Below, piece after piece: positions 1-17,071 of a stretch of 64,000 bases of DNA. The stretch lies in the NCBI GenBank assembly GCA_002709235.1, contig PAQI01000003.1, forward strand, positions 1-64,000, written 5' to 3'. A program made the translations under genes and the position numbers. Position 1 is the stretch's first letter. Each line of letters begins with the position of its first letter. The notes under the pieces were generated by a model. It made no database searches, was not told the origin of the DNA, and saw nothing but the letters and a program-made list of their open reading frames with translations. The stretch is from Hirschia sp. (GTDB taxonomy: Bacteria; Pseudomonadota; Alphaproteobacteria; Caulobacterales; Hyphomonadaceae).

Positions 1-780
1 CCTGATATCCATATGCCCATCCAGCTCCGAAGCATATCCGCGCAATCGAACATGATCTCCGGGTGCAAGCGGTATGCGGTCTGGTGCGCGGGCCAACCCA
101 TAACCAAGCCTCACCGCCAACCCGCCGCTCGCCGTACCTGCAACACGCGACTGGCCATCGGCAATCTCTGCAATCTCGTCTATGCGGCCTTCCACAATGC
201 AGAACCCTCGCCTCGTCTGCGACAGATCATCAGGTGTTCGCACGTTATATCCCTGATGCGTCCACAATCCCCTGTTCAGCTGCCTGGCTTCGCTTTCAAG
301 CGGATAGAGTGCACGCGCCCTGGCACAATTGTCCGAATAGCTGCGCACACGCGCGCCCCCCTGATGCACCATATAGCCATTGAGCCAGATGTCCTTTCCG
401 GTCTCATCCTCCACCAGGACATGCGCCAGCGCCCTGTCATATCGATCGCGAGACAATCCGCCATAATACAATCTGGCGACCCGACCCAGAGCGATATATT
501 CCAGCATCTCGAAGGACTGTTCGCCAAATGGGTCCTGCGGCCTATCATTCCAGGCCAGACGCGGAGCCTCTATTTCCGCCAGACGCACACTAAGGCCACT
601 ATCAAGCGTCAGAGCATCCCCATCCCGGATCTTGACCACGCGCCCGCTTTCACCCGCAACCAGCCCATCCGTCCGTTGAGACGAACCGCATCCCAACACC
701 ACCGCAAAACTGCTGAAAAGCACCGCTCGTCGACTGAACTTACTGCAATCGACCATGTGTAAGACTCGATTCACACCCAT
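1..780 (-). CDS. Thermonuclease-fold (SNase) lipoprotein, 3' end clipped
   Basis: Open from an ATG at 780 to the window edge (260 codons), so the C-terminus is missing. Residues 15-31 carry an SRRAVLF twin-arginine-like motif, a hydrophobic stretch and a VVLGC lipobox (Cys31), which suggests a Tat-exported lipoprotein. Residues 47-180 follow the SNase pattern: RVVKIRDGDAL, VRLAEIEAP, then DRYDRALAHV. The arginines matching Arg35 and Arg87 of staphylococcal nuclease are present (Arg66, Arg116), but the position of the catalytic Glu43 is Arg74 by my alignment, so activity is doubtful. An alternative ATG lies at 756; neither start has a clear ribosome binding site. Divergent from tamA. Confidence 0.75.
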   Translation of the reverse strand, partial: MGVNRVLHMVDCSKFSRRAVLFSSFAVVLGCGSSQRTDGLVAGESGRVVKIRDGDALTLDSGLSVRLAEIEAPRLAWNDRPQDPFGEQSFEMLEYIALGRVARLYYGGLSRDRYDRALAHVLVEDETGKDIWLNGYMVHQGGARVRSYSDNCARARALYPLESEARQLNRGLWTHQGYNVRTPDDLSQTRRGFCIVEGRIDEIAEIADGQSRVAGTASGGLAVRLGYGLARAPDRIPLAPGDHVRLRGYASELDGHMDIR

Positions 781-939
781 ATTAGACAGATGATGCAACA
801 AGACGGAACGACTCGCCATCACTCAGCAACATTCTGGCAATGCTGTTGCAGGACAATGGCAAATGGACATGCCCCGAACGCTTTGACAATGAAAAGACAC
901 GTTTAGAGTTTGACGCACGATTTATCCAAATCGATCAGC

Positions 940-2691
940 ATGCGCGCGACCTGGCTCGTTGCAGCAGCGCTGATATCACCCGCTGCATTGGCGCAGACAG
1001 TTTCTCTGGAAAACACCGGAGAACCACTGCCCGAAGCTGTGCGTGAACGTATCAATAGCCTGCTGGCTGAAGAAGATACTGCAGATACCCGCTTTGAAGC
1101 CAGGCGTCAGGCACGTCGTGCAGCAGACATCGTGCTCAAGGTTCTCAATTCGGAAGGATATTTCGACGCGGATGCCGAAATCTCTGTCGAGCTCGAGCCA
1201 AAGATTACACCAAAGGTGATCCTCAACGCTGGGGAGCTTTTTCGCTTTAGTGACGTCTCAGTGCTGCTGGAATCGAAAAACGGTACAATACGCGACGATG
1301 TGAATGTGGACCTCGTTCCCCGTATGGGCAAAGGCGACCCGGCACGCGCAGATCAGATCATCAGCGAAGAACGCCGCATGTTCAGCCAGTTGCGGGATGC
1401 AGGTTATCCTGAAGCTCGCATCCTTGATCGGGCCCTGATCGGTGACCGCGAGAACACCAGTATTGATCTGACCTATCGCTACCAGCCCGGAGCACTGGTC
1501 TGCATGGGTGATATCACCCTGAAGAACAAAGGCGTCACACGCCCAGTCATGATCAATCGACTGTCCGAAATCGAACCCGGCCAGGCCTATGATGCCGACA
1601 AGCTGGCGACACTGGAACGCAGGCTGGTTCAGACCCGCATGTTCGATCTGGCCAATGTCGAGCTGGCAACCAGCAGTGAGGACCGCGGTGAAAGTGGATG
1701 TCAGATCCGCGAGATCATCATCGATCTTGACGATGCACCGCGCCAATCGGTCGGGCTTGGTGCAAGTTATTCCACATCCGAAGGCATGGGTTTCCAGGGC
1801 GACTGGCAACGCCGCAACTTTACCGGACGTCTCGACACTCTGCGTACTTCGCTATTGGTCGCCGAACTCGAACGCGAATTCGAGCTGGCCTGGGAACAAC
1901 CGGTTTTTGGCGGATATGGCCGCACATTGACGTTCGCGCTCACCGCGACGGATGAGGAAACAGATGCCTATGACCGCAGCGCCCTCGGCATTTCTGCGGA
2001 TTATGATTATCGCTGGACAGATCGACTGACCCTCTCGACCGGCGCGAGCCTTGAACATTCCCGAGAGGATGACGGTGAGACCGAGCGCGATATCAATCTC
2101 ATCTCCGGTCTGCTCGGCGGGACATGGGACGGGACCGACTCGGCCCTGGATCCGACACAGGGGTTCCGGGTCTATCTGCAGGGCGAGCCATCCTATGCCA
2201 TTGGCGATACGGAAGGCGCATTCATCCGAACAACTTCCGAAGTGCGTGGATATACCGGCATCAATTCGGACCGCTTCGTGCTGGCAGGTCGTTTCAAGAT
2301 GGGTTCGGTCTATGGTGCAGAGCAGGCAGAGCTTCCCGTCGACAGGCGTTTCTTTGCGGGTGGCGGCGGCTCGGTACGCGGATATGGCTATCAGGCTTTG
2401 GGACCGGAAGATGATGAGGGCGACCCGATTGGCGGGCGCAGCCTGATCGAGACAAGCATTGAAGGCCGCTGGCGCATTCGCGACAAATATGGCGCTGTCC
2501 TGTTTGTTGATGCCGGTGAAGCAACCAAGCAAGAGTTACCCAGGTTTTCCGATCTGCGCGCAGGCGTAGGCGTGGGATTTCGATATTTCACCCAGTTCGG
2601 CCCCCTGCGCCTGGATATCGCAACCCCGCTGGACAAGCGTGAGGATGACGATCCTGTGCAGGTCTATATCTCTATCGGGCAGGCATTCTGA
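940..2691 (+). CDS. tamA: TamA, BamA/TamA-family outer membrane assembly factor
   Basis: A 583-residue Omp85-superfamily protein. A signal peptide (MRATWLVAAALISPAALAQ) is followed by POTRA-type repeats to about residue 265 and a C-terminal 16-strand-type barrel. The barrel carries the diagnostic loop motif GSVRGYGYQ near residue 480 and ends in an aromatic beta-signal (ISIGQAF). TamA acts with TamB in moving material to the outer membrane. I chose ATG 940 because the signal peptide begins there; an in-frame TTG at 910 would add ten residues. Its stop overlaps the tamB start by one base (TGATG), so the two are translationally coupled. Confidence 0.93.
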   Translation: MRATWLVAAALISPAALAQTVSLENTGEPLPEAVRERINSLLAEEDTADTRFEARRQARRAADIVLKVLNSEGYFDADAEISVELEPKITPKVILNAGELFRFSDVSVLLESKNGTIRDDVNVDLVPRMGKGDPARADQIISEERRMFSQLRDAGYPEARILDRALIGDRENTSIDLTYRYQPGALVCMGDITLKNKGVTRPVMINRLSEIEPGQAYDADKLATLERRLVQTRMFDLANVELATSSEDRGESGCQIREIIIDLDDAPRQSVGLGASYSTSEGMGFQGDWQRRNFTGRLDTLRTSLLVAELEREFELAWEQPVFGGYGRTLTFALTATDEETDAYDRSALGISADYDYRWTDRLTLSTGASLEHSREDDGETERDINLISGLLGGTWDGTDSALDPTQGFRVYLQGEPSYAIGDTEGAFIRTTSEVRGYTGINSDRFVLAGRFKMGSVYGAEQAELPVDRRFFAGGGGSVRGYGYQALGPEDDEGDPIGGRSLIETSIEGRWRIRDKYGAVLFVDAGEATKQELPRFSDLRAGVGVGFRYFTQFGPLRLDIATPLDKREDDDPVQVYISIGQAF

Positions 2692-5600
2692 TGAGCAATG
2701 CACCCGAAACTCCGCAGCAAATGAGACGAGGCCGCTTTGCCGTCAAATGGCCCAGAGGCTGGCTCCGTATCGGGCTGATCGTTATCGGTGTCCTGCTGGC
2801 ACTGATATTCATTGCACGTCTGCTGATCGGTGCAGCTCCCGGTCGGGCCATGCTTGAACGTATCGTTGAAGGTCAGTCCTTCAACGGCCAGTCAATCGCC
2901 ATGGAAAATCTCGAAGGCGACATTCTAGACGATGCACGCATTGGTGAAATTCGTATCTCTGATGCTGAAGGCGACTGGCTGATCATCGAGGATGCAAGGC
3001 TGGACTGGTCGTTCCTGTCACTATTGCGAAAACAGGTGATCATCACCGAACTCGCAGCATCGAAAATTCACATGCTGCGCGATCCACTGATTGAACCCTC
3101 CGAACCAAAACCAGACAAGAAAAGCAGTGGCGGCAGTTTCATCAAACACTTCGAACTGACGAAACTCTCTCTGCCTGACATACAGATCGACGAAACCGAG
3201 CAACGCCCATACATGGCTCTGCAACTTGCCGGAGCCGCTGAGGCAGGCAATGATGGTGGGCGGTTGGTGCTGGACCTCAACAGCAAGGATATGTCGGCCA
3301 GCGACAGCGCCGAAATTGATATCCGCTGGACCCAGGCTTTCATTCTCACCGGCCAGGCCGATGTGAATGCGCCACAGGGCGGGATCGTCCAGACGCTTTT
3401 GCCGATCAAGCCAGATGGCGACATCACCCTGCATTTTGAAGGCGAAGGTGATGCCGACAAGTGGACGGCTGCTGGCCAGCTCAGCGATGCCGGTCGCGAA
3501 GCCTTGCGCTTCTGGGGCGATGCCGCTTCCAATCAGATCGAAGCACATATCGAGATTGTTCCGGCAGCATCCTCCCTGCTGACAAACATCGGCGACAGGC
3601 TCGGCGAGATGGTGCGCGCCGATGTCACAATGAATATCGCACAGCTGGATCAGTCCGATGTGTCGCTTGACCTGCGATCAGACCATCTGAGCGCCCGCAT
3701 TTACGGGCCGGTGGATATTGAAGACAGAGCTTTGGCTGGCACTCTGGCGGTAATTGCACGCACGCGTGACCTTTCGACGCTTTCAGGCGTTCCGGACCTG
3801 ACTGCGCAGATGCTGTCTGTGAGCGGAGAACTGACACAGGACAAACAGGATTTTCGATTTGCAGGCGATGTATCGGCAGATAAGCTGGCTTATGGCGACA
3901 CGGTAACCTTTGGTGCATTGTTGAGCCGCGTCGATGCACGATATGGGGATAACAAGCTTGCCACTCTGATCGACCTTGATGCGTCATCTCCTACCTTTTC
4001 GACCCCCCAGCTGAATGCACTGGTTGGGGATCGCCTCACTCTATTGGGCGATTTCTCAATGGATGTCAGCGACCAGTCCATCAAGATCAGCCAGTTGGAT
4101 GCACGCGGACATACTGTACGCCTGACGGCTACCGGAGACCTGTCACCAGAAGAGCCGTTCAATCTGAAGGGGGATCTCGCACTAAAAGACCTCTCACGAG
4201 TAACAGATCAGGTTACGGGTAGCGCAACGCTGGATTGGCGCGTGCAAAGACGCAGTGCAGATGCTCCTATTGCCGCCAATGTCAAAGGCCGGACAAAAGC
4301 CCTCAAGGCTCTTGATCCCACACTCAGGGATTTGCTGGGTGAACGTCTTGATTTTGACGCCACGGCGAGCATCGCCCCCGATGGCAGCGCAAATTGGAAT
4401 ATGGCGGCATCGTCTGCCGGGATCTCGGTGAAAAGCGTTGGCGATTACAGCGACAAGGGCGTGGACGCAAATATCGATGCCAAACTGGACGCGATTTCAG
4501 TGTCAGGTGTGTCCGCAAGTTCTCTCGCCCTCCGTGCCTCCGCCAAGGGCCCCGTGGACGCTGTCAGGATCAATGCCAGATCCTCCCTGGAATCCGTTGA
4601 AACGGGCTCTGTGACGCTGAGTGATCTTGCTCTCGCCTTCGATGGCCGCCGCACCGATACAGGAATGGCCGGTGATCTGGCGCTGGATGGCGCAGCCAAT
4701 GGCGAACCGATCAGCCTGCGCTCATTGGTCGACACCTCAAACGGTGTGGGTCTTGAAACGATCACCGCCAGCTGGGCCGACCTCAAGCTGACCGGCGATG
4801 TCTCCAAGCCGCCGGGTGAGGACGTAACTGCCGAGTTCGCGCTGAGCGGTCCCATCCCGCTCGAAGACATGACCGGGGATCTGGATATCACCGGCACGCT
4901 TGTCGGTGAGCGCATTGATGTCGCTGGACGCATTGATGAGTTGTCAACCGATACCATCGCGCTGGATGACGCCCGGTTTACCATCGCCGGTGTTCCTGCC
5001 GACCTTAAAATCACGGCAAACGCAAAGGGCACGCAAGCCTCAGGACTACGCAGGGTTCCACTGGCGCTGGCGCTGAATGCAGATGTGAAACAGGAGGAAA
5101 CGGCACGCATCATCACGGCAAGCCTGGATGGTAGTTATGATCGCGAGCCTGTACGCACTCTCTCCCCTCTCACCTTGCAACTGACCGATACCGGGCTGGA
5201 AGCAGAAACCCGGCTGGATATTCTCAATGGTGAGATCGCCCTTACCGTGGAGCGTAACAGTGAAACCTCTGGCCTTACAGCCCAACTCCAGGCCACCGGC
5301 ATTGATATTCAGCGCGCTGCCGCATTGGCCGGGCGCAACGATGTAAAGGGAAATGCAGCCATCAATGCAGAATGGCGCGGACAGGCTGATCAGGGCGAAG
5401 GAACGGTCACGATCAAGCTGGATGGGTTGGAGCGCGTCACCGAAGGCTCGCCGGTCATGCAGATCGCCATCAATGCCGCTACGCGTGACAATCAATGGGC
5501 ACTCGACCTGAATCTTACCGGCGAGGATGATCTGTCGATCACCGGAAATGCCACCGTGCCGCTTCGAGTCGCCAATGGTCTTCCCCAGTTTGACGCCGAA

Positions 5601-6893
5601 CAGGATGCCATTGCCTATGCCATTGACGGCAAAGGGCATCTTGGACCGTTATGGACGCTGGTCGGTATTGAAACCGTGGAACTGGATGGCGATTTCGAAC
5701 TGGTCGCCCGCGATGATGCCATCATATCGGCCATGCGCCCCACAGGCCGATTGACCTTCGAGAATGGTGAATTCGAACATGCCGGCATAGGCGTAGGACT
5801 GCGCGACATCTCATTGGCAGCCGATTTCAACAGCCAGGCACTGACTCTGGATAGTGTAACCGCTCGCGGTGTCGATGGCGGTAGCATTTCCGGGCGTGGC
5901 TCCATGAATCTCGACCAGATCGGTGCATCATCCCTGTATCTCGATTTCAAGGATTTCGTGGCGATCAAGCGCAATGGCCAGGAATTGCAACTGGCTGGCC
6001 GGGCGAAGATGGAGAAAACGGAAAAAGGTGCAGCAATCACAGGTGAACTGACCGCTGAGCGTGCCCTGCTCGATATCACCACCCTGACTGCCGGCACCCA
6101 GATCCCGACCGTCAACGTGACCTTCCCGGACAAAGAAGAGAAACAGGCCACACCAGAAGAGGAAGCGCCGCCAGAACGCACCTTCCCCGTCACCATCGAC
6201 CTCAAGCTGAAAGCCCCCAACAAGGCCTATATCCAGGGCATGGGTCTGGATGTCGAAATGTCTGCGGATATCGCAGTGCGTGGCCGCATGTCGGATCTGG
6301 CACTGATCGGACAGGCCAATGTTGTACGTGGAGGCTTTGAACTGGCCGGACAGCGTTTCGACTTCGACAAGGGTTCAGTCAATTTCAAGGGAAAACCGAA
6401 AAACGCCTTGCTGGATTTTGAGGCCACGCGGTCTTCTGATGGGGTAACGTCATATCTGCGCATTGGCGGCACGGTCACCAACCCTGAACTGATCCTCAGC
6501 TCAAGCCCATCCCTGCCCGAAGATGAGATCCTGGCGCGTCTGTTGTTTGGACGTTCAGCTGCGGAACTGTCCGCACTGGAAGCAGCTCAATTGGCAGCTG
6601 CCCTCGCCACGATGACGGGCGGCGGTGGTGGCCTGAACCCCTTGGGTGAAATCCGCAATGCAGTCGGGCTGGACCGCTTGACTGTCTCATCCAATGCCGA
6701 GGGCAATGCCAGCGTCGGTGCCGGGCGCTATCTGGCTGATGATGTCTATCTGGAATTTCGCACCAGCCCCGGCAGTGTCGCAGATATCGCCGTGGAATGG
6801 ACCCCGCGTGACAATATCGAGATCGGCACTGAATTCCAGCAGGACGGCGACGCCCGCGTCACGGTGCAATGGAAGAAGGATTATGGGGAATAG
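2691..6893 (+). CDS. tamB: TamB, translocation and assembly module inner-membrane protein
   Basis: A 1400-residue protein with one N-terminal membrane anchor (about residues 24-46, IGLIVIGVLLALIFIARLL), a very long repetitive beta-rich region and the conserved C-terminal TamB (DUF490) domain over roughly the last 350 residues. This region includes GQANVVRGGFELAGQRFDFDKG and the closing ..VQWKKDYG. The family forms a periplasm-spanning beta-groove that carries lipids or folding proteins between the membranes and pairs with TamA. Its length is within the family range. A bidirectional terminator follows. Confidence 0.95.
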   Translation: MSNAPETPQQMRRGRFAVKWPRGWLRIGLIVIGVLLALIFIARLLIGAAPGRAMLERIVEGQSFNGQSIAMENLEGDILDDARIGEIRISDAEGDWLIIEDARLDWSFLSLLRKQVIITELAASKIHMLRDPLIEPSEPKPDKKSSGGSFIKHFELTKLSLPDIQIDETEQRPYMALQLAGAAEAGNDGGRLVLDLNSKDMSASDSAEIDIRWTQAFILTGQADVNAPQGGIVQTLLPIKPDGDITLHFEGEGDADKWTAAGQLSDAGREALRFWGDAASNQIEAHIEIVPAASSLLTNIGDRLGEMVRADVTMNIAQLDQSDVSLDLRSDHLSARIYGPVDIEDRALAGTLAVIARTRDLSTLSGVPDLTAQMLSVSGELTQDKQDFRFAGDVSADKLAYGDTVTFGALLSRVDARYGDNKLATLIDLDASSPTFSTPQLNALVGDRLTLLGDFSMDVSDQSIKISQLDARGHTVRLTATGDLSPEEPFNLKGDLALKDLSRVTDQVTGSATLDWRVQRRSADAPIAANVKGRTKALKALDPTLRDLLGERLDFDATASIAPDGSANWNMAASSAGISVKSVGDYSDKGVDANIDAKLDAISVSGVSASSLALRASAKGPVDAVRINARSSLESVETGSVTLSDLALAFDGRRTDTGMAGDLALDGAANGEPISLRSLVDTSNGVGLETITASWADLKLTGDVSKPPGEDVTAEFALSGPIPLEDMTGDLDITGTLVGERIDVAGRIDELSTDTIALDDARFTIAGVPADLKITANAKGTQASGLRRVPLALALNADVKQEETARIITASLDGSYDREPVRTLSPLTLQLTDTGLEAETRLDILNGEIALTVERNSETSGLTAQLQATGIDIQRAAALAGRNDVKGNAAINAEWRGQADQGEGTVTIKLDGLERVTEGSPVMQIAINAATRDNQWALDLNLTGEDDLSITGNATVPLRVANGLPQFDAEQDAIAYAIDGKGHLGPLWTLVGIETVELDGDFELVARDDAIISAMRPTGRLTFENGEFEHAGIGVGLRDISLAADFNSQALTLDSVTARGVDGGSISGRGSMNLDQIGASSLYLDFKDFVAIKRNGQELQLAGRAKMEKTEKGAAITGELTAERALLDITTLTAGTQIPTVNVTFPDKEEKQATPEEEAPPERTFPVTIDLKLKAPNKAYIQGMGLDVEMSADIAVRGRMSDLALIGQANVVRGGFELAGQRFDFDKGSVNFKGKPKNALLDFEATRSSDGVTSYLRIGGTVTNPELILSSSPSLPEDEILARLLFGRSAAELSALEAAQLAAALATMTGGGGGLNPLGEIRNAVGLDRLTVSSNAEGNASVGAGRYLADDVYLEFRTSPGSVADIAVEWTPRDNIEIGTEFQQDGDARVTVQWKKDYGE

Positions 6894-6928
6894 CGAGTAA
6901 GCATCCCTTCCCCGCACGACATTCCACA

Positions 6929-6971
6929 CAAAAAAGCGCGCTCTTCCTAAAATGCAAGAGCACGCTTTTTG
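6929..6971. terminator. Bidirectional terminator between tamB and dps
   Basis: Inverted repeat AAAAAGCG-C-GCTCTT / AAGAGC-A-CGCTTTTT with a 10-base loop and A/T runs on both sides. It can therefore end transcription of both convergent genes. Confidence 0.85.
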
Positions 6972-6987
6972 CGTTGTAACGGAAACC

Positions 6988-7446
6988 TTATTTCAAATGA
7001 GCGCGCATCATCCATGCGGATTTTTCGAGCACGGCAACGCGCTGTGTCATCAGATCGGCGGTGGCGTCATCGCCCTTGTCAGCGGCCAGTTGCAGCGCCT
7101 TGCGCGCAGTGCGGATAACGGTCTCGCTGTCAGACACCAGATTGGACATCATCTGAAGCGCTTCCGGGACGTCATTATCGGCCTTGATCGTTGCGCCACT
7201 ATAGATGGCCGCCCCCGATGGTGCGAAAAAGCCCAGTGAACGGATCCGCTCGGCAATCTCGTCAAGCGAGTTCCAGAGATCTGTATATTGCGTCATGAAA
7301 AGAGCGTGAAAGGTCGAAAATTGCGGGCCTTCTACATTCCAGTGATAACCGTGTGTCTTGATATAAAGCGCATAGGTCTCGGTGAGCACGTCCGAGAGTG
7401 CGTCTGCGATTTCCTTGCGGTCAGGTTCGGGAATTCCAATGTCCAT
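6988..7446 (-). CDS. dps: Dps-family ferritin-like DNA protection protein
   Basis: A 152-residue four-helix ferritin-like protein. The motif THGYHWNVEGPQFSTFHALF followed by DEIAERI is the Dps signature; His35, His47, Asp62 and Glu66 match the inter-subunit ferroxidase ligands, while the position of E. coli Asp67 is Met51. Such dodecamers oxidise and store iron and protect DNA in starvation or peroxide stress. The ribosome binding site AAGGAG lies 8 bases before the ATG. A perfect Irr-type palindrome lies just upstream (7462-7478), which points to iron control. Confidence 0.93.
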   Translation of the reverse strand: MDIGIPEPDRKEIADALSDVLTETYALYIKTHGYHWNVEGPQFSTFHALFMTQYTDLWNSLDEIAERIRSLGFFAPSGAAIYSGATIKADNDVPEALQMMSNLVSDSETVIRTARKALQLAADKGDDATADLMTQRVAVLEKSAWMMRAHLK

Positions 7447-7461
7447 GTTATATGCTCCTTG

Positions 7462-7478
7462 TTTAGAAGGTTTCTAAA
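7462..7478. promoter_or_regulatory. Irr-box (ICE)-like palindrome upstream of dps
   Basis: Perfect 7-bp arms TTTAGAA-N3-TTCTAAA, centred about 24 bases before the dps ATG. This matches the alphaproteobacterial iron-control element bound by the haem-responsive regulator Irr (from memory of the family consensus). It lies between a possible -35 and the ribosome binding site, so it probably overlaps the core promoter. Confidence 0.65.
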
Positions 7479-7581
7479 TTGGGTAATGAATGCCGGATTT
7501 CAATAGACTAGCACAAAATGTCGCGCCCGCCTCGAACAAACGAAGCGGGCGCATTGTGGTTCCAAGGACTGAAATCGTCGG

Positions 7582-9120
<1,539 letters not shown>

Positions 9121-9393
9121 ATGGCACAGACCATTCAGACCACACCGCGAGACCTGGCCGCCATGAAAGGCGACCAAATGCTCAAGCCGGTAGTCTTCAG
9201 GCCAAACGCAGAAGCGCCCATCGCGCATGCCCGGCCCTTCTCCCTATTTTCCAGTCACCCCAATTCAGGAATGCTCAGCTTTGCCGACCGGCTCGCTGGC
9301 TTCCTGAAGCGTCCCGCAGCCTTATTGACAGCCCCAAACCGGGTTGCGGGACGCACTGCTTCACAGGATCTCTCCCTTCCGGGTGAGAACTGA
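9121..9393 (+). CDS. Small hypothetical protein
   Basis: Ninety codons preceded by AAGGGG seven bases before the ATG. The product is basic and soluble, with an N-terminal segment (MAQTIQTTPRDLAAMKGDQM) and a proline/arginine-rich remainder. No signal peptide, membrane segment or known motif is visible. Overlapping antisense ORFs exist but have no ribosome binding site, so this strand is preferred. I do not recognise a family. Confidence 0.5.
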   Translation: MAQTIQTTPRDLAAMKGDQMLKPVVFRPNAEAPIAHARPFSLFSSHPNSGMLSFADRLAGFLKRPAALLTAPNRVAGRTASQDLSLPGEN

Positions 9394-9726
9394 TCGTCTG
9401 GTGTGACGAGCCGCGCGGAAGGCCCTCTCTCTTCATCTGCGCGGTCAACAGGCTGTTTTGTGTGTGTAAGCCTGATCGTCCCGGAAAGCGGCGTTCGCGG
9501 CGGGCCTGATCGAATGCGGCATGAGTGCGGATTGACGTGCTGTCGCATCCATCAGGAGCAACCGTCCGGGGACGGGACGCCGCAACTGCCTGCCTGTCAT
9601 CCGGAGGGGACGCCAGATGACAGGCAGGTTCCCCTTTGAAGTGCATCTGCTGGCCCAGTTCTCGCATTACACGAGTATGAGAGCTTGAGACGCGCCAGAT
9701 TGGTGCATCGAATGGAAAGGGCCGTC
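9394..9726. other. Structured intergenic region with 13-bp perfect hairpin
   Basis: A 333-base gap. At 9589-9628 a perfect inverted repeat (CCTGCCTGTCATC / GATGACAGGCAGG, 14-base loop containing GGAGGGG) can fold. Immediately before it, CCGTCC-GG-GGACGG (about 9562-9575) makes a second short stem. No T-run follows, so it is not a simple terminator. It may be a leader or small RNA, or a repeat element. Confidence 0.4.
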
Positions 9727-10005
9727 ATGACTGTTTACGAACAAGCCGTACACGATACACGGCATTACCTCATGGATCTGTTCGAACGCGTATCCGCACA
9801 GGTTTACGCACCATTCGCAGATTGGACAGACCTACAGAAACTCGTATTGATTCTAGGGCTTATTGTTTTTCTGGGGTATCTAGCAGCCCGCCCACCACGC
9901 ACCCGCCGCCGTTATGCCGCCGCGCAGACCAATCACGGTCTTGTCATGCTGTGCATGGTTGTCGTGGGAAGCTTTACGGCCGGTCTGGTGTTCATCACAC
10001 CATAG
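9727..10005 (+). CDS. Small membrane protein, function unknown
   Basis: Ninety-two residues from ATG 9727, chosen because GGAAAGGG lies five bases upstream; two in-frame upstream starts (9685, 9712) have no such site. Two hydrophobic segments (LVLILGLIVFLGYLAA, about 41-56, and LVMLCMVVVGSFTAGLVFI, about 72-90) flank a basic loop rich in Arg/Pro. The N-terminus is amphipathic. This predicts a two-pass inner-membrane protein. No family recognised. Confidence 0.6.
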   Translation: MTVYEQAVHDTRHYLMDLFERVSAQVYAPFADWTDLQKLVLILGLIVFLGYLAARPPRTRRRYAAAQTNHGLVMLCMVVVGSFTAGLVFITP

Positions 10006-10013
10006 TCAATCAG

Positions 10014-10520
10014 TCAGTCGATGAAGCAACCGGAATCCCGCACCTCACGGCGCTCATTATCCCCGAAATAGGGTGATTTGCGCCGACGACGATCTGGTCC
10101 GAAAAATTCACCACAACGCACGAAATTCCGGCGGTTGTTTACAACCGTGACGAGCTTGTCCCATGCCTGCTGGGACGATACCGGCTTGGCGAGGATCTCA
10201 TCGGCACCAGCATCGATCATCAGCCTGATCGTCACGCGGCGCGTATCCGCCGTGCAGGCAATGATCGGCACATGCGGTGCCGGGCTATCTGACCCTTTGC
10301 GCAGGACTTCCACGAATTCTGAACCCGTCATATCGCCCAGATGATGGTCGACAATGATCGCGTCCACATCGGTTTGCTGCAGCTGTTCCAGCGCATCTCT
10401 GGCACTGCCCGCCTCAATGACGTTTCGTATTCCAAACCCCAGCAACATGCCGCGCCACAACATCCGCATGTTGCGATGATCGTCCAGAACCATGATCCTG
10501 ACATTGCGAAGCCGCGACAC
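10014..10520 (-). CDS. Receiver-only response regulator (CheY-like) with GPDRR tail
   Basis: A 168-residue protein. Residues 5-128 form a receiver domain with acidic pocket Asp13/Asp14, phosphoacceptor Asp58 (AIIVDHHLG), ACTADT and Lys112 (ILAKPVS). There is no DNA-binding or enzymatic output domain; instead a basic tail of about 40 residues contains FGPDRRRRKSPYFG. The GTG start has GAGGG seven bases upstream. The next gene upstream is a clear paralogue, so the pair arose by duplication. The partner kinase is not in the window. Confidence 0.85.
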   Translation of the reverse strand: MSRLRNVRIMVLDDHRNMRMLWRGMLLGFGIRNVIEAGSARDALEQLQQTDVDAIIVDHHLGDMTGSEFVEVLRKGSDSPAPHVPIIACTADTRRVTIRLMIDAGADEILAKPVSSQQAWDKLVTVVNNRRNFVRCGEFFGPDRRRRKSPYFGDNERREVRDSGCFID

Positions 10521-10655
10521 TTGCTAACCCTCAAACATCCGGAAAACCGGCAAAGTGGTCATTTGCGAGACATTCCGATACTGACTGAATTAGACCATAA
10601 AGCGATTTCGATTGGATAAGCCGGTGCCCACAGATTTCACCACGCGCGTTAACCG

Positions 10656-11150
10656 CTAGTCTTGCTCGGTTTCAACCACGGCCTTGCGACGATCTGGTCC
10701 AGAGTAATGCTGGTCCTTGCGCCGACGGCATGGTCCCAGATAAAGCGGTGTGCTGACAAATTTACGGCGATTGTTCACGACTGCCGAGAGTTTCTTCCAG
10801 GCCTGCTCTGCAGATACCGGCTTTGCGAGCACCTCATCCACACCCGCATTCACCAGCTCCTTGAGCGTGCTGCGACGCGTGTCGGCCGTACAGGCAATGG
10901 CGGGGATCATATATGGCATATCATCGCTACGGCGGATCAAACGCATCAGTTCCGCACCGGAAAGCCCTTCCAGGTTGAAGTCCACGATCAGGACATCCAC
11001 CGTATCGTCACGCAGGATTTCAAAGGCGCTGGTTGCATCCGGTGCTTCCAGCACCTTGCGAATGCCGAATCCAAGCAGAATCGTCCGCCACAACACACGC
11101 ATATTCGCATGGTCTTCGACCAGAAGGACGGTCACATCTTTGAAACCCAT
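10656..11150 (-). CDS. Receiver-only response regulator, paralogue of the neighbour
   Basis: A 164-residue receiver domain (phosphoacceptor Asp57 in VLIVDFNLEG, Lys110 in VLAKPVS) with the same C-terminal layout as its neighbour: VVNNRRKFV, then a tail with LGPCRRRK and YSGPDRRK. Shared blocks (NMRxLWRxxLLGFGIRxV, PxIACTADTRR, KPVSxxQAW) show recent common descent. I chose ATG 11150 because AGAGGG lies six bases upstream; a TTG at 11192 would add 14 residues but its ribosome binding site is too close. Likely a phosphorelay or protein-binding switch. Confidence 0.85.
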   Translation of the reverse strand: MGFKDVTVLLVEDHANMRVLWRTILLGFGIRKVLEAPDATSAFEILRDDTVDVLIVDFNLEGLSGAELMRLIRRSDDMPYMIPAIACTADTRRSTLKELVNAGVDEVLAKPVSAEQAWKKLSAVVNNRRKFVSTPLYLGPCRRRKDQHYSGPDRRKAVVETEQD

Positions 11151-11313
11151 CTCTTGCCCTCTCCCACAATTCGCCTTCTTCGGACGAAACAACTTCCCCT
11201 CAATCTAAGACACGGTAACAAAGCTTCGTATAGGCAGCATTAAGCCAAGTGTAAAAAGAAGTGACCTGTTTGGTAAGGTTTGCCTAGCGCTTGCGAACCT
11301 ACATATTCATAAC

Positions 11314-13200
11314 ATGACTGATTCGAGCGCACCTTCTACCCCTGCCCCCCGTCTATCGGGCGTGGACATTATCAGGGACCAGCTTAAACGCCTGCCAAAC
11401 AAGCCAGGCGTCTACCGCATGTTTGGGGCGGATCAGGAGCTGCTCTATGTTGGCAAGGCGCGCAATCTGAAGAACCGCGTTGGCAGCTATGCCAAGCTGG
11501 GCGGCCATACACAGCGTATCGCACGCATGATCTCTTTGACCCGGGCCATGGAATTCGTGGTCACCGAAACCGAGACCGAAGCGCTATTGCTGGAAGCCAA
11601 CCTCATCAAGCGGCTCAAGCCTCGCTTCAACATATTGCTGCGCGACGACAAGAGCTTTCCCTATATCCTGATCCGCCGTGACCATGTCGCACCGATGATC
11701 ACCAAGCATCGCGGCTCCAAGAGCATAAAGGGCGATTATTTCGGCCCCTTTGCCTCTGTCGGTGCTGTCAACCAGACGCTGGACACGCTGCAAAAGGCTT
11801 TCCTGCTGCGCAATTGCACTGACAGCACCTATGAGGGCCGCTCTCGCCCCTGCATGCAGCACCAGATCAAACGCTGCGCCGCGCCCTGCACTGGCGAGAT
11901 CTCGATCTCCGACTACAGGGCGCTGACAGAACAGGCGGCAGACTTCCTGCGTGGCAAGGCGGATAATCTGCAAAAGCAACTCGTCGCCGACATGGAATCG
12001 GCCGCCGGGCAGATGGAATTTGAAACCGCCGCCCGCCTGCGAGACCGGATCAAGGCGCTGGCCGCCGTGCGGGCAAGCCAGGGCATCAACCCGGCCGGGA
12101 TTGATGAGGCTGATGTGTTCGCCATTGAAAGCCAGGCCGGTCAGACCTGCATTCAGGCCTTCTTCTTCCGGGCGGGCCAGAACTGGGGCGCAAATGCCTT
12201 CTATCCACGCCATGACAGCGACGATGCGCCCGAGGACGTGCTGGCCGCCTTTCTCGTGCAGTTTTACGACAACCGCCCGCCGCCAAAACTGGTGCTGACC
12301 TCCATCGAGCCAGGTCAGTCGGACCTGATCGCAGATGCGCTGGAACTGCGCGCCGATCACAAGGTCGAAATCCGTGCGCCCCAGCGCGGCGAAAAGCTGG
12401 ATCTGGTCAAACAGGCCGCCACCAATGCCCGCGAAGCGCTTGGCCGCAAGCTGGCCGAAACCCAGAGCCAGACGCGCATTCTCGCCGCCGTGCAGAAAAC
12501 CTTCGACCTGCCTGAGCCGCCACGCCGCATCGAGGTTTACGACAACTCTCACATACAGGGCACAAACATGGTCGGCGGCATGATCGTCGCCACGCCGGAT
12601 GGCTATGACAAATCCAGCTATCGCAAGTTCAACATCAGGGATGAAAGCATCGAGCCGGGCGATGATTATGGCATGATGCGCGAGGTGATGCGCCGCCGCT
12701 TTGGTCGCCTGAAAAAGGAAAATGAAGGCCGCGAGACCCGCCCGGGTACATGGCCAGATCTGGTCCTCATCGATGGCGGGCTGGGCCAGCTGGGCGCTGT
12801 GCTGGAAACCGTCCGCGAGCTGGGCTTCGAGGAGGGCGAACTGAACCTCGTCTCGATCGCCAAGGGACCGGACCGCAATGCCGGGCGCGAACAATTCTTC
12901 CGCCCCAACAAGGCCCCCTTCCAGCTACCGCCCAATGACCCGGCGCTCTATTATCTCCAGCGCCTGCGCGACGAAGCCCACCGCTGGGCCATCGGCGCCC
13001 ACCGCGCCAAACGCTCCGCCGACATCACCAAAAACCCCCTCGACGAAATCGAAGGCATCGGCCCCACCCGCAAAAAAGCCCTGCTCAACCGCTTTGGCTC
13101 AGCCAAGGGCGTGAGCAAGGCGAAAGTGTCGGACCTGATGGAGGTAGAGGGGGTGAATGAAGCGCTGGCGGTTAGGATTTTTGGGTGGTTTAGATCGTAG
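11314..13200 (+). CDS. uvrC: UvrC, excinuclease ABC subunit C
   Basis: A 628-residue nucleotide-excision-repair nuclease. In order: the GIY-YIG nuclease (KPGVYRMF...[14 protein letters not shown], about 28-55), a Cys-containing region ([13 protein letters not shown]), the UVR motif that binds UvrB (about 230-245), the RNase H-like second nuclease ([20 protein letters not shown] and DGGLGQLG), and the C-terminal helix-hairpin-helix pair. It makes the 3' and 5' incisions around a lesion marked by UvrB. The length is typical. Confidence 0.97.
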
Positions 13201-13236: not shown

Positions 13237-13710
13237 TTATACGACGATCGTCTTGTAAGAGCTTGTGAGCGTGAAGGCCGTAGAATCCAATGTCAGCTCG
13301 TAATTCGGGATGTCATATACAACATGGCAAAGGCTCATGAAGTCCCGGCCGAGCAATGATGGATTGTCCTTGATAGCGTCGGTATAGGGCATCAGCACCA
13401 CCTCCATCACTACCCCAACCAACAATCCCTTGTCGTCGTCCTGAAACCAAAGCGTGACTGTCAGCTTTTTTGTGAGGCCGCTGAGCCCCGTCGCCCCCTG
13501 CACCGGGCCTTCATCTTCCAGTTTATTGAATTCTTCCTGCCTAAGAAGCCTTTTCCAATCCTTTGGCATCAGGATAGTGCGCCTTGCGCCCGTATCCAGG
13601 AGGAAGGAAAGTTGTATATGGCTGCTATTGGCCGGTGTTTTTGCGTCAAGACGAACTTCGCCCACGACTCGAGGCTCCAATTCCGGCGGCCTCACCCTGC
13701 CCCTGATCAT
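13237..13710 (-). CDS. Retropepsin-like aspartic protease domain protein
   Basis: A 157-residue single-domain protein. FLLDTGARRTILM (Asp39-Thr-Gly) is the clan AA aspartic protease active-site motif, and LLGRDFM near residue 120 matches the second conserved Leu-Gly-Arg-Asp block. Such proteins act as dimers. The ATG lies three bases after the stop of the upstream DUF5678-like gene, so the two form an operon; this pairing recurs in bacteria and archaea as I recall it. Substrate unknown. Confidence 0.75.
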   Translation of the reverse strand: MIRGRVRPPELEPRVVGEVRLDAKTPANSSHIQLSFLLDTGARRTILMPKDWKRLLRQEEFNKLEDEGPVQGATGLSGLTKKLTVTLWFQDDDKGLLVGVVMEVVLMPYTDAIKDNPSLLGRDFMSLCHVVYDIPNYELTLDSTAFTLTSSYKTIVV

Positions 13711-14573: not shown

Positions 14574-14897
14574 TCAGATCGGCATGCGCAGGATTTCCTG
14601 ATAGGCCTTGATGACCTCATCGCGCACTGCGACGACGGTCTCCAGCGTGGCTTCGGCGGCAGCAACCGCCGTGACCACATCCACCAGATCGGCATTGCCC
14701 ATCGCCGCCGTCGAGATCGCGTTCTCTGCGGTCATGCCCGCCTGCCCCGCCTTGGAAACAGCCGAAGACAGCATGTCGGAAAAACCGCCAGCGCCTTCGA
14801 TCAACCCATCGTCATTGTCACCGATCGACAGGGATTTCTGGGCCGCCTGTGCAGCCTGTAGATAGGCGCGCGATGCATTCACTGACATATCGGACAT
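14574..14897 (-). CDS. fliE: FliE, flagellar hook-basal body junction protein
   Basis: A 107-residue small helical protein ending in the family signature VVTAVAAAEATLETVVAVRDEVIKAYQEILRMPI. FliE joins the MS ring to the proximal rod and is exported early by the flagellar type III apparatus. It is the last gene of flgB-flgC-fliE; the gap to flgC is 50 bases. Length is normal. Confidence 0.95.
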   Translation of the reverse strand: MSDMSVNASRAYLQAAQAAQKSLSIGDNDDGLIEGAGGFSDMLSSAVSKAGQAGMTAENAISTAAMGNADLVDVVTAVAAAEATLETVVAVRDEVIKAYQEILRMPI

Positions 14898-14947
14898 TTA
14901 AGTCATCCCCTCGGGATCAAGAAATTACAGGCCAGCGCAAAAGCCGC

Positions 14948-15364
14948 TTACGCCTTCAGCAGGTCAACAGCGGCCAACAACATGGCGCGGCTGGATTCAA
15001 CCACATTCAGATTGGCCTCATAGGCGCGCTGGGCTTCGCGCAGATCCGTCATTTCCGTCAGCGCCGAGACATTTGGCAGCTTCACCATGCCGTTTTCGTC
15101 CGCTGCGGGGTGCGATGGATCATATTTCATTGGAAAGGCGGCCGTATCCTGGCGCACGCCCGAAACCTTGACGCGCTCTGCGCCGGCATCGCGGTCCATA
15201 TAGGTCTTGAACACGGCTTCCTTGCGCCGATAGGGATCGGCACCTGCGGTCTCGCCGGTCGAATTGGCATTGGCGAGGTTCTCGGCTGACAGGCGGATAC
15301 GCACCGTCTGCGCACGCAGGCCCGAGGCAGCGCTGGACATGGCAGACATAAGGTCGTTGGACAT
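14948..15364 (-). CDS. flgC: FlgC, flagellar proximal rod protein
   Basis: A 138-residue protein with the rod-protein N-terminal signature (LMSAMSSAASGLRAQTVRIRLSAENLANANST) and the C-terminal heptad helix MTDLREAQRAYEANLNVVES. It assembles into the proximal rod with FlgB and FlgF. It lies 23 bases downstream of flgB, in one operon. Length is normal for FlgC. Confidence 0.96.
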   Translation of the reverse strand: MSNDLMSAMSSAASGLRAQTVRIRLSAENLANANSTGETAGADPYRRKEAVFKTYMDRDAGAERVKVSGVRQDTAAFPMKYDPSHPAADENGMVKLPNVSALTEMTDLREAQRAYEANLNVVESSRAMLLAAVDLLKA

Positions 15365-15387
15365 GGATCAGTCTCCTGTAGCTGAGC

Positions 15388-15822
15388 TTATCTCGTTGGC
15401 GATTTGGCGGCGAGGCGAACCAATGACAGGCCCTTGGAATAAAGCTGGACGGCGGTTTCAAATTCCATACGGGTTTCGGCCATTTTCATCATCTGCTCTT
15501 CAACCACCACGGAATTGCCATCCAGCGTGGTTTCCGAATCGGGTGATTTCTGAATCGACACCCCATTGGCCAGCGGGGCTCGTGTACCGGCGGCAATATG
15601 GCCAGGATTGGTGGTCATCATGCGCACGCCGCGACGGTTGGTCCCGCCGACTTCACCATTGGCAAGAGCCTTGTTGAACTTGTCGACATCCACATCATTG
15701 GCCGTGTAGCCGGGCGTGGACACATTGGCGACATTCTGCGCCAGCGTTTTCTGGCGCTCACCAAGCATTTCCATACGCGACTTCAGCATTGTGAAGACTG
15801 GCATGTTTAGCGGGCTCGACAT
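15388..15822 (-). CDS. flgB: FlgB, flagellar proximal rod protein
   Basis: A 144-residue rod subunit. The N-terminus includes LKSRMEMLGERQKTLAQNVANVSTPGY, the conserved rod/hook motif ANxxTPGY, and the C-terminus is the helix MKMAETRMEFETAVQLYSKG. I chose ATG 15822 (AAGGA nine bases upstream); an in-frame ATG at 15855 adds eleven poorly conserved residues. First gene of flgBC-fliE, divergent from fliOP. Confidence 0.94.
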   Translation of the reverse strand: MSSPLNMPVFTMLKSRMEMLGERQKTLAQNVANVSTPGYTANDVDVDKFNKALANGEVGGTNRRGVRMMTTNPGHIAAGTRAPLANGVSIQKSPDSETTLDGNSVVVEEQMMKMAETRMEFETAVQLYSKGLSLVRLAAKSPTR

Positions 15823-15923
15823 TCCAGAACGTCCTTGCATCAACAGACAGGGCACAATTTTCCCCTTACCCGGCAGAAAACACCATCTTGGTTAAGGCGA
15901 AGTGAAGGAGTTCAGCAGCAATC

Positions 15924-15938
15924 TTAACGCGTCGTTTA
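15924..15938. promoter_or_regulatory. CtrA-box-like site between flgB and fliO
   Basis: TTAA-CGCGTCG-TTTA matches the CtrA consensus TTAA-N7-TTAA in seven of eight fixed positions. It lies 101 bases before flgB and 84 before fliO in the 200-base divergent region, where control of both early flagellar blocks would be expected. Assignment rests on the consensus known from Caulobacter. Confidence 0.55.
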
Positions 15939-16022
15939 CCAACACGACCGAAACGTTAACGCGGAAATGCAGGCCGAACCCTGAAACACCGGCCGAAACG
16001 CAGAACGCGTGTGGAGCACCTT

Positions 16023-16325
16023 ATGGAAGACATGATCCGCGCCATTGCGGCCCTTCTCGTGGTCCTTGCTGCCATTTTGGGGCTGGGCTATGCGCTGCGC
16101 CGTTTTTCTGCCGGCCGCATCAATGCTGAAGGCCGGGCATCAGATCTTCGCGTATTGGAATGGCGCGGTCTGGATGCGCGCCGCAAGCTGGTTGTGGTGC
16201 GCTGGGATGACCGCGAACACCTTCTGTGCCTCAGCCCGGCAGGCGATTGCGTGGTTTCGTCTCGCAACGCGCCTGAATTCAAGATTGTGCCGGATCAGAC
16301 CGATGATGAAGGAGGCAGCCTGTGA
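16023..16325 (+). CDS. fliO: FliO, flagellar export apparatus assembly protein
   Basis: A 100-residue protein with one N-terminal membrane helix (IAALLVVLAAILGLGYALRRF) followed by the small cytoplasmic FliO domain (LEWRGLDARRKLVVVRWDDREHLLCLS). It helps assemble the FliP ring. ATG 16023 is preferred because GGAG lies six bases before it; GTG 16011 and ATG 16032 are alternatives. Its stop overlaps the fliP GTG start (GTGA). Sequence conservation in this family is low, so the assignment leans on position. Confidence 0.85.
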   Translation: MEDMIRAIAALLVVLAAILGLGYALRRFSAGRINAEGRASDLRVLEWRGLDARRKLVVVRWDDREHLLCLSPAGDCVVSSRNAPEFKIVPDQTDDEGGSL

Positions 16326-17071
16326 ACCATCTGTGGCGTCTTCTTGTCCTGATCGCACTGACGGCCTTCACGCCTCTGGCCGCACATGCACAGGAAATCA
16401 CCGTCGATCTGGGCACCGGACAGGGAATGACGCGCGGCATTGTGCAGATGCTGGCGCTGATCACCGTCCTGTCGCTGGCTCCTTCAATCCTTGTGATGAC
16501 GACAAGCTTCGTGCGGATCACCGTTGTCCTGTCACTGTTGCGAACCGCCATCGGTACAGGCCAGAGCCCGCCCAATGCGGTGATCGTCTCGCTCTCCTTG
16601 TTCCTGACCGCCTTCATCATGGCACCCACCTTTCAGGCAGCTTATGATAGCGGCATCGAACCCTTCATGGCCGAGGCCATCACGCTGGAGGAAGCCATTC
16701 CGCGCACCACGGCACCGCTGAAAGTGTTCATGGCCGAGCATGTGGGAGATGAGGACCTGGCGCTGTTTGCAGGCATGGCCAAGCTCGACACGCTGGAAAG
16801 CGCTGAAAGCGCACCATTTCACGTCCTGGCCCCGGCCTTCATGATCTCTGAGCTGAAGCGCGCCTTCGAGATCGGCTTCATGGTCTTCCTGCCCTTCCTG
16901 ATCATCGACCTGGTGGTCTCCTCCATCCTGATGAGCATGGGGATGATGATGCTGCCACCTGTGACGATCTCCCTGCCCTTCAAGCTGATCTTCTTCGTGC
17001 TGGTCGATGGTTGGCGGCTGATCTCGGGCTCACTGGTGGAAAGCTTCATCGCAGGCCCGCCAGGCGGGTAG
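16322..17071 (+). CDS. fliP: FliP, flagellar type III export gate protein
   Basis: A 249-residue membrane protein with a cleavable signal peptide (LLVLIALTAFTPLAAHAQ), the FliP signature VLSLAPSILVMTTSFVRI near residues 45-62, and C-terminal helices including FLIIDLVVSSILMSMGMMMLPP. It forms the core of the export gate. GTG start, coupled by a four-base overlap to fliO. fliQ and fliR are not in the window. Confidence 0.97.
   Translation: MNHLWRLLVLIALTAFTPLAAHAQEITVDLGTGQGMTRGIVQMLALITVLSLAPSILVMTTSFVRITVVLSLLRTAIGTGQSPPNAVIVSLSLFLTAFIMAPTFQAAYDSGIEPFMAEAITLEEAIPRTTAPLKVFMAEHVGDEDLALFAGMAKLDTLESAESAPFHVLAPAFMISELKRAFEIGFMVFLPFLIIDLVVSSILMSMGMMMLPPVTISLPFKLIFFVLVDGWRLISGSLVESFIAGPPGG

Follow-up and report, generated by a model that had tools for sequence, protein, structure and literature searches.

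What does a basic C-terminal tail do in a response regulator that has no output domain? This question is raised by two adjacent genes in the window (the whole stretch of 64,000 nucleotides of Hirschia sp. DNA that was analysed), each of which encodes a receiver domain with a short, arginine-rich C-terminal extension. Both genes lie on the reverse strand. The proximal gene, RRb (10656..11150, −), encodes a protein of 164 aa from an ATG start and precedes in transcription order the distal gene, RRa (10014..10520, −), which encodes 168 aa from a GTG start; the intergenic gap is 135 bases. A Shine-Dalgarno-like GAGGG is found upstream of RRa. For RRb, the ATG is favoured over the mechanically assigned TTG start at 11192 because it is preceded by GGGAGAGGG. 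A scan for promoters and terminators at the pair gave no signal exceeding that of shuffled sequences.

RRa and RRb share 48% identity across 160 residues. The sole Pfam family above cut-off in both proteins was Response_reg (E 4.8e-20 for RRa and 1.6e-20 for RRb), and RRa has an extra match to cREC_REC below the Pfam cut-off. The phosphorylation residues are intact in RRa (D13, D14, D58, T90, and K112) as well as in RRb (E12, D13, D57, T88, and K110). An AlphaFold2 model of a pair protein showed a receiver fold and a short hairpin (strands 133–136 and 139–142) with low confidence beyond the hairpin (block means of 71, 53, and 65 from residue 141) and no folded output domain. An earlier note on this DNA had described adjacent receiver-only paralogues that lack an output domain and keep all phosphorylation residues, and the open reading frames, the Pfam matches and the residue check bear this out.

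The tails comprise residues 130–168 of RRa (10017..10133, −), with the sequence RRNFVRCGEFFGPDRRRRKSPYFGDNERREVRDSGCFID, and residues 128–164 of RRb (10659..10769, −), with the sequence RRKFVSTPLYLGPCRRRKDQHYSGPDRRKAVVETEQD. The basic tails with GPDRR motifs noted earlier (about 40 residues) are thus real, and can be refined to ∼38 residues with two GP-x-RR-type motif copies per tail, one of which is imperfect. In RRa the first copy is FFGPDRR and the second a degenerate FGDNERR without Gly and Pro, as also found in the two closest relatives of this tail. In RRb the first copy, YLGPCRR, is the imperfect one and the second is YSGPDRR; the motif arginines are 12 residues apart vs. the usual 13. 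The Cys that replaces Asp/Glu in the first copy of RRb is likewise seen in 12/120 distinct tail-bearing proteins, a set of close relatives and Caulobacter examples that were all selected for the first motif copy and many of which are closely related. Among the 527 open frames of ≥60 codons in the window, only RRa and RRb match the pattern [YF].GP.[RK]R.{10,13}RR, and when the residues of each tail were shuffled 200,000 times, the same pattern arose 39 times for RRa and 5 times for RRb. The tail pattern is not a product of chance or composition.

The Cle proteins of Caulobacter are described as CheY-like c-di-GMP effectors (PMC5677366). They have a C-terminal arginine-rich region (ARR) with a tandem [YF]xGP[DE][RK]R motif, through which each protein binds two molecules of c-di-GMP. 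When a profile of 16 tails, two of them from RRa and RRb, was searched against all PDB chains, the single match at E ≤ 1 was 6SFT (E 3.7e-10, 33 residues aligned), a CleD ARR peptide named by its depositors “Two-component receiver protein CleD”. We take this entry to be a complex with c-di-GMP. Searched alone, the RRa tail gave a non-significant E of 0.28 to 6SFT, and the single tail of another relative gave 3.1e-07. A second profile, built without RRa and RRb from ten tails from outside the genus, scored 42.1 bits for RRa, 44.9 bits for RRb and 45.7 bits for a CleD orthologue, with 11.5 (RRa) and 11.7 bits (RRb) as the best of 2000 shuffles per tail. By homology, both tails are therefore putative c-di-GMP-binding modules of the ARR type. 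The 6SFT match and the profile scores led us to reject the idea that the tail is an output domain of a new type. A literature search for GPDRR returned only unrelated papers.

The residues E70, R113, R142, R156, and R169 of CleD could be placed consistently by residue counting on the CleD orthologue of a Caulobacter sp. (L168). The equivalents of R142, R156, and R169 are R131, R145, and R158 in RRa and R129, R143, and R155 in RRb. The positions of R131 and R158 in RRa are occupied by Arg in 120/120 tail-bearing proteins, while the R145 position is fixed by the pattern with which the 120 proteins were selected.

A further residue of CleD, R113 in helix α4, is an Arg common to all Cle orthologues according to Nesper et al. 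(2017; PMC5677366). It was strictly required for the localisation of CleA and CleD, and contributed partially to CleA function and approximately threefold to CleD affinity (PMC5677366). The corresponding residues are I102 in RRa and V100 in RRb. The α4 Arg is absent in 28/120 tail-bearing proteins (RRa, RRb, and 26 others, one of them from Caulobacter sp.), and from these sequences it looks frequent, not universal, in such proteins. As 27 of the 28 Arg-less proteins fall in one clade of 31, where the other four members keep the Arg, its loss is a property of a branch and not of the pair; the clade has moderate support (0.844) in a midpoint-rooted FastTree phylogeny. No mention of such a branch was found in the parts of PMC5677366 consulted. 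RRa and RRb are most likely new members of the known Cle family, belonging to this α4-Arg-less branch. In its proteins, binding may be weaker, a different contact may be used or phosphorylation may be required. With a supposedly general residue missing from 28/120 proteins, the roles of the α4 contact and of phosphorylation become testable by comparison.

When named genomes were scanned with a pattern from the N-terminus of the receiver, at least 427 relatives were confirmed, and the best 80 loci were kept, several of them from one genome. These are presumably from alphaproteobacterial groups, except for one labelled Proteobacteria only. The tail is carried by 80/80 of these loci (the best 80 of at least 427 relatives), which were ranked by whole protein, so that the tail helped in their selection. 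Similar tails in other alphaproteobacteria, for which the earlier note had proposed to look, are accordingly present. In 3/3 genomes of the genus that were examined, the pair adjoins a divergent uvrC (11314..13200, + in the window; Pfam UvrC domains). An aminotransferase gene lies past the other end of the pair in all three, with a gene encoding a di-haem cytochrome c peroxidase domain in between in H. maritima. As a linked unit far outside the genus, the pair was not found among the best 80 of at least 427 loci, for which flanks of up to 6 kb were covered, some ending at contig ends. Within this set a second family gene occurs only in L078, which is the Hirschia maritima pair itself, and in L135, where the two genes are ∼4.4 kb apart. 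Conservation of the tail and linkage of the pair, on both of which the earlier proposal leaned, thus hold for homologues and within the genus, respectively; linkage outside the genus did not hold among these 80 loci. Clustering of ARR genes as such is not a speciality of the genus, as neighbouring matches were found in G189, G246, G261, and G098, and long pairs in the family.

In an AU test on the three genus genomes, orthology by position was rejected for the tail tree (p 0.009), which favoured a grouping of the RRa tail with the proximal genes. The receiver tree did not decide between orthology by position (p 0.785) and the swapped arrangement (p 0.262), and excluded that the window pair group together (p 0.034). 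The tail and receiver histories of the window pair relative to L038 and L039 may disagree, and both tail exchange and a gene-order swap are possible.

Co-occurrence of the ARR with the flagellar protein FliM was investigated in two draws of genomes. In the family draw (105 genomes) FliM was found in 25 and ARR matches in 27, and all 25 FliM genomes have ARR. ARR was thereby present in 2/80 family genomes without FliM, one 78% complete (G361) and one in 540 contigs (G363). Five genera have both and five have neither, so few independent events lie behind this match. In the class draw (241 genomes) ARR was found in 88, and FliM in 78/88 with ARR vs. 63/153 without (Fisher p 7e-14), all these counts being uncorrected for relatedness. 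The ten class-draw genomes with ARR and no FliM match are G082, G086, G098, G117, G167, G198, G238, G245, G249, and G262, and G098 has nine ARR matches. These genomes are perhaps incomplete, or ARR proteins may have non-flagellar targets. That ARR and FliM coincide in the family draw speaks for a role at the motor in bacteria other than Caulobacter, too. Together, these comparisons show a conserved tail of the ARR family that occurs along with the flagellum.

The Hirschia genome itself has a single FliM match, whose N-terminus, SERILNQDEIDSLLGF, holds the docking motif NQDEIDSLL. It also has ten matches to the c-di-GMP synthesis domain GGDEF in nine frames and three matches to the CheA dimerisation domain, two of which have equal scores and frame lengths. 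The nine ARR matches stand for seven distinct proteins, since a stretch of at least 12,570 bases from the start of contig C3 is present a second time, in identical form, in contig C16. The duplicated stretch covers positions 191–12760 of the window (12,570 bases) and lies in the end part of C16, probably as a result of assembly redundancy. A second tandem ARR pair is located on another contig (L006, G000:C29, 2531–3526 and 3480–4409, −) with frames of 332 and 310 codons, in which the receiver and the ARR are followed by ∼136 and ∼127 further residues without a significant Pfam family. Adjacent long ARR frames recur in the family (e.g., G001, G002, G004, G019, and G024) and are kept more widely than the window pair. 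In another ARR protein (L005, G000:C5, 3307–3867), the phosphorylation positions of the receiver read G, N, N, T, and L, so that most of these residues are lost, and the E to Response_reg is 0.054, below cut-off. The protein keeps YFGPDRRR and is a possible phosphate-independent member.

The window also contains flagellar basal-body genes (14574..17071, mixed strands), namely fliE (−), two rod genes (−), and fliP (+), identified by the Pfam families FliE, Flg_bbr_C, Flg_bb_rod, and FliP. The closest of these starts ∼3.4 kb from the pair, and no flagellar gene was found among ten ORFs scanned in 17-kb stretches of two relatives. Between uvrC and the flagellar genes lies a gene (13237–13710, −) whose 157-aa product matches the retroviral-type aspartyl protease family (RVP, E 4.3e-06).

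RRa and RRb are very probably regulators of the Cle type, with tails that bind c-di-GMP and receivers that adjust the flagellar motor. By analogy with CleD, the basic tail would bind c-di-GMP, with the conserved arginines probably holding a dimer of it, and the switch face of the receiver would dock on FliM and alter the motor. RRa and RRb probably have different affinities or act on the motor in different ways. For RRa and RRb themselves we infer c-di-GMP binding, motor docking, the physiological role and any link to surface contact. The Cle-type reading has some points against it, namely the absent α4 Arg, the imperfect motif copies, the E of 0.28 for the RRa tail and the ten class-draw genomes with ARR and no FliM match, and also the intact phosphorylation residues, which would be needless in a purely c-di-GMP-driven protein. 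As the α4 Arg is absent and the phosphorylation residues are intact, a role for phosphorylation is possible in RRa and RRb.

The earlier note had gone further and proposed a phosphate-dependent switch with the tail as output. In such a switch, phosphorylation of the receiver by a kinase would release the basic tail, which could then attach to a protein, a membrane or nucleic acid. Complete phosphorylation residues in both proteins and the three CheA-type matches in the genome, which answer part of the note's call for partner kinases, are in line with this; no kinase domain was found among the six window neighbours scanned. The tail, however, matches a known ligand-binding peptide, and in the homologous Caulobacter proteins it is the tail that forms the ligand-binding input and FliM docking that forms the output, with the phosphoryl acceptor of CleA and CleD dispensable (PMC5677366). 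The proposed wiring is therefore probably inverted, and we consider a phosphorylation-driven switch very unlikely. Nor do the phosphorylation residues mark out the pair, as they are complete in 110/120 tail-bearing proteins. A variant compatible with the Cle-type explanation gives phosphorylation a smaller part: in the α4-Arg-less branch it would offset the missing α4 contact, so that phosphate and c-di-GMP are both needed for FliM docking. The phosphorylation residues are complete in 27/28 proteins without the α4 Arg, and 27/28 such proteins belong to the one clade; yet 83/92 proteins with the Arg keep these residues too, a difference that is not significant (Fisher p 0.45), and the clade support is moderate. 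We regard this variant as somewhat unlikely.

One or both proteins could instead be decayed sensors that no longer bind the ligand and now simply compete with CheY or act as a phosphate sink. Such decay would fit the absent α4 Arg and the second motif copy, which is degenerate in RRa as well as in the two relatives closest to it by tail, but the arginines important in CleD are kept in both proteins and the pair keeps both tails in 3/3 genus genomes, which makes decay improbable. A more far-reaching idea, and a rather doubtful one, is that c-di-GMP and phosphorylation act jointly throughout the large α4-Arg-less branch, and that paralogues with complementary imperfect copies divide the work, by different affinities or by sharing one c-di-GMP dimer, to give a graded or logical motor response. 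With the Cle-type explanation, a previously unexplained tail is placed in a known c-di-GMP-to-flagellum pathway, to which a tandem Cle pair from Hirschia is added.

Like canonical CheY, RRa and RRb have a receiver domain with phosphorylation residues. Canonical CheY has, to our knowledge, no ARR tail, and the CheY matches of the pair in the PDB stop short of it. The phosphorylation residues of the pair are complete, unlike those of the CleD orthologue, which has Pro and Glu at two acidic positions. With CleA–CleE of Caulobacter crescentus (PMC5677366), the pair shares the layout of a receiver and, C-terminal to it, a short arginine-rich tail that carries a tandem motif. The arginines tested in CleD are also kept in RRa and RRb, as is the CheY-docking motif in the FliM of the same genome. 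The pair differs from these proteins in having Ile or Val in place of the α4 Arg, in the degenerate second motif copy of RRa, and in the arrangement of its genes as a tandem pair adjoining uvrC. CleD has been observed to act at the C ring of Caulobacter and to alter the motor (PMC7534056), and RRa and RRb might act on the Hirschia motor in a similar way.
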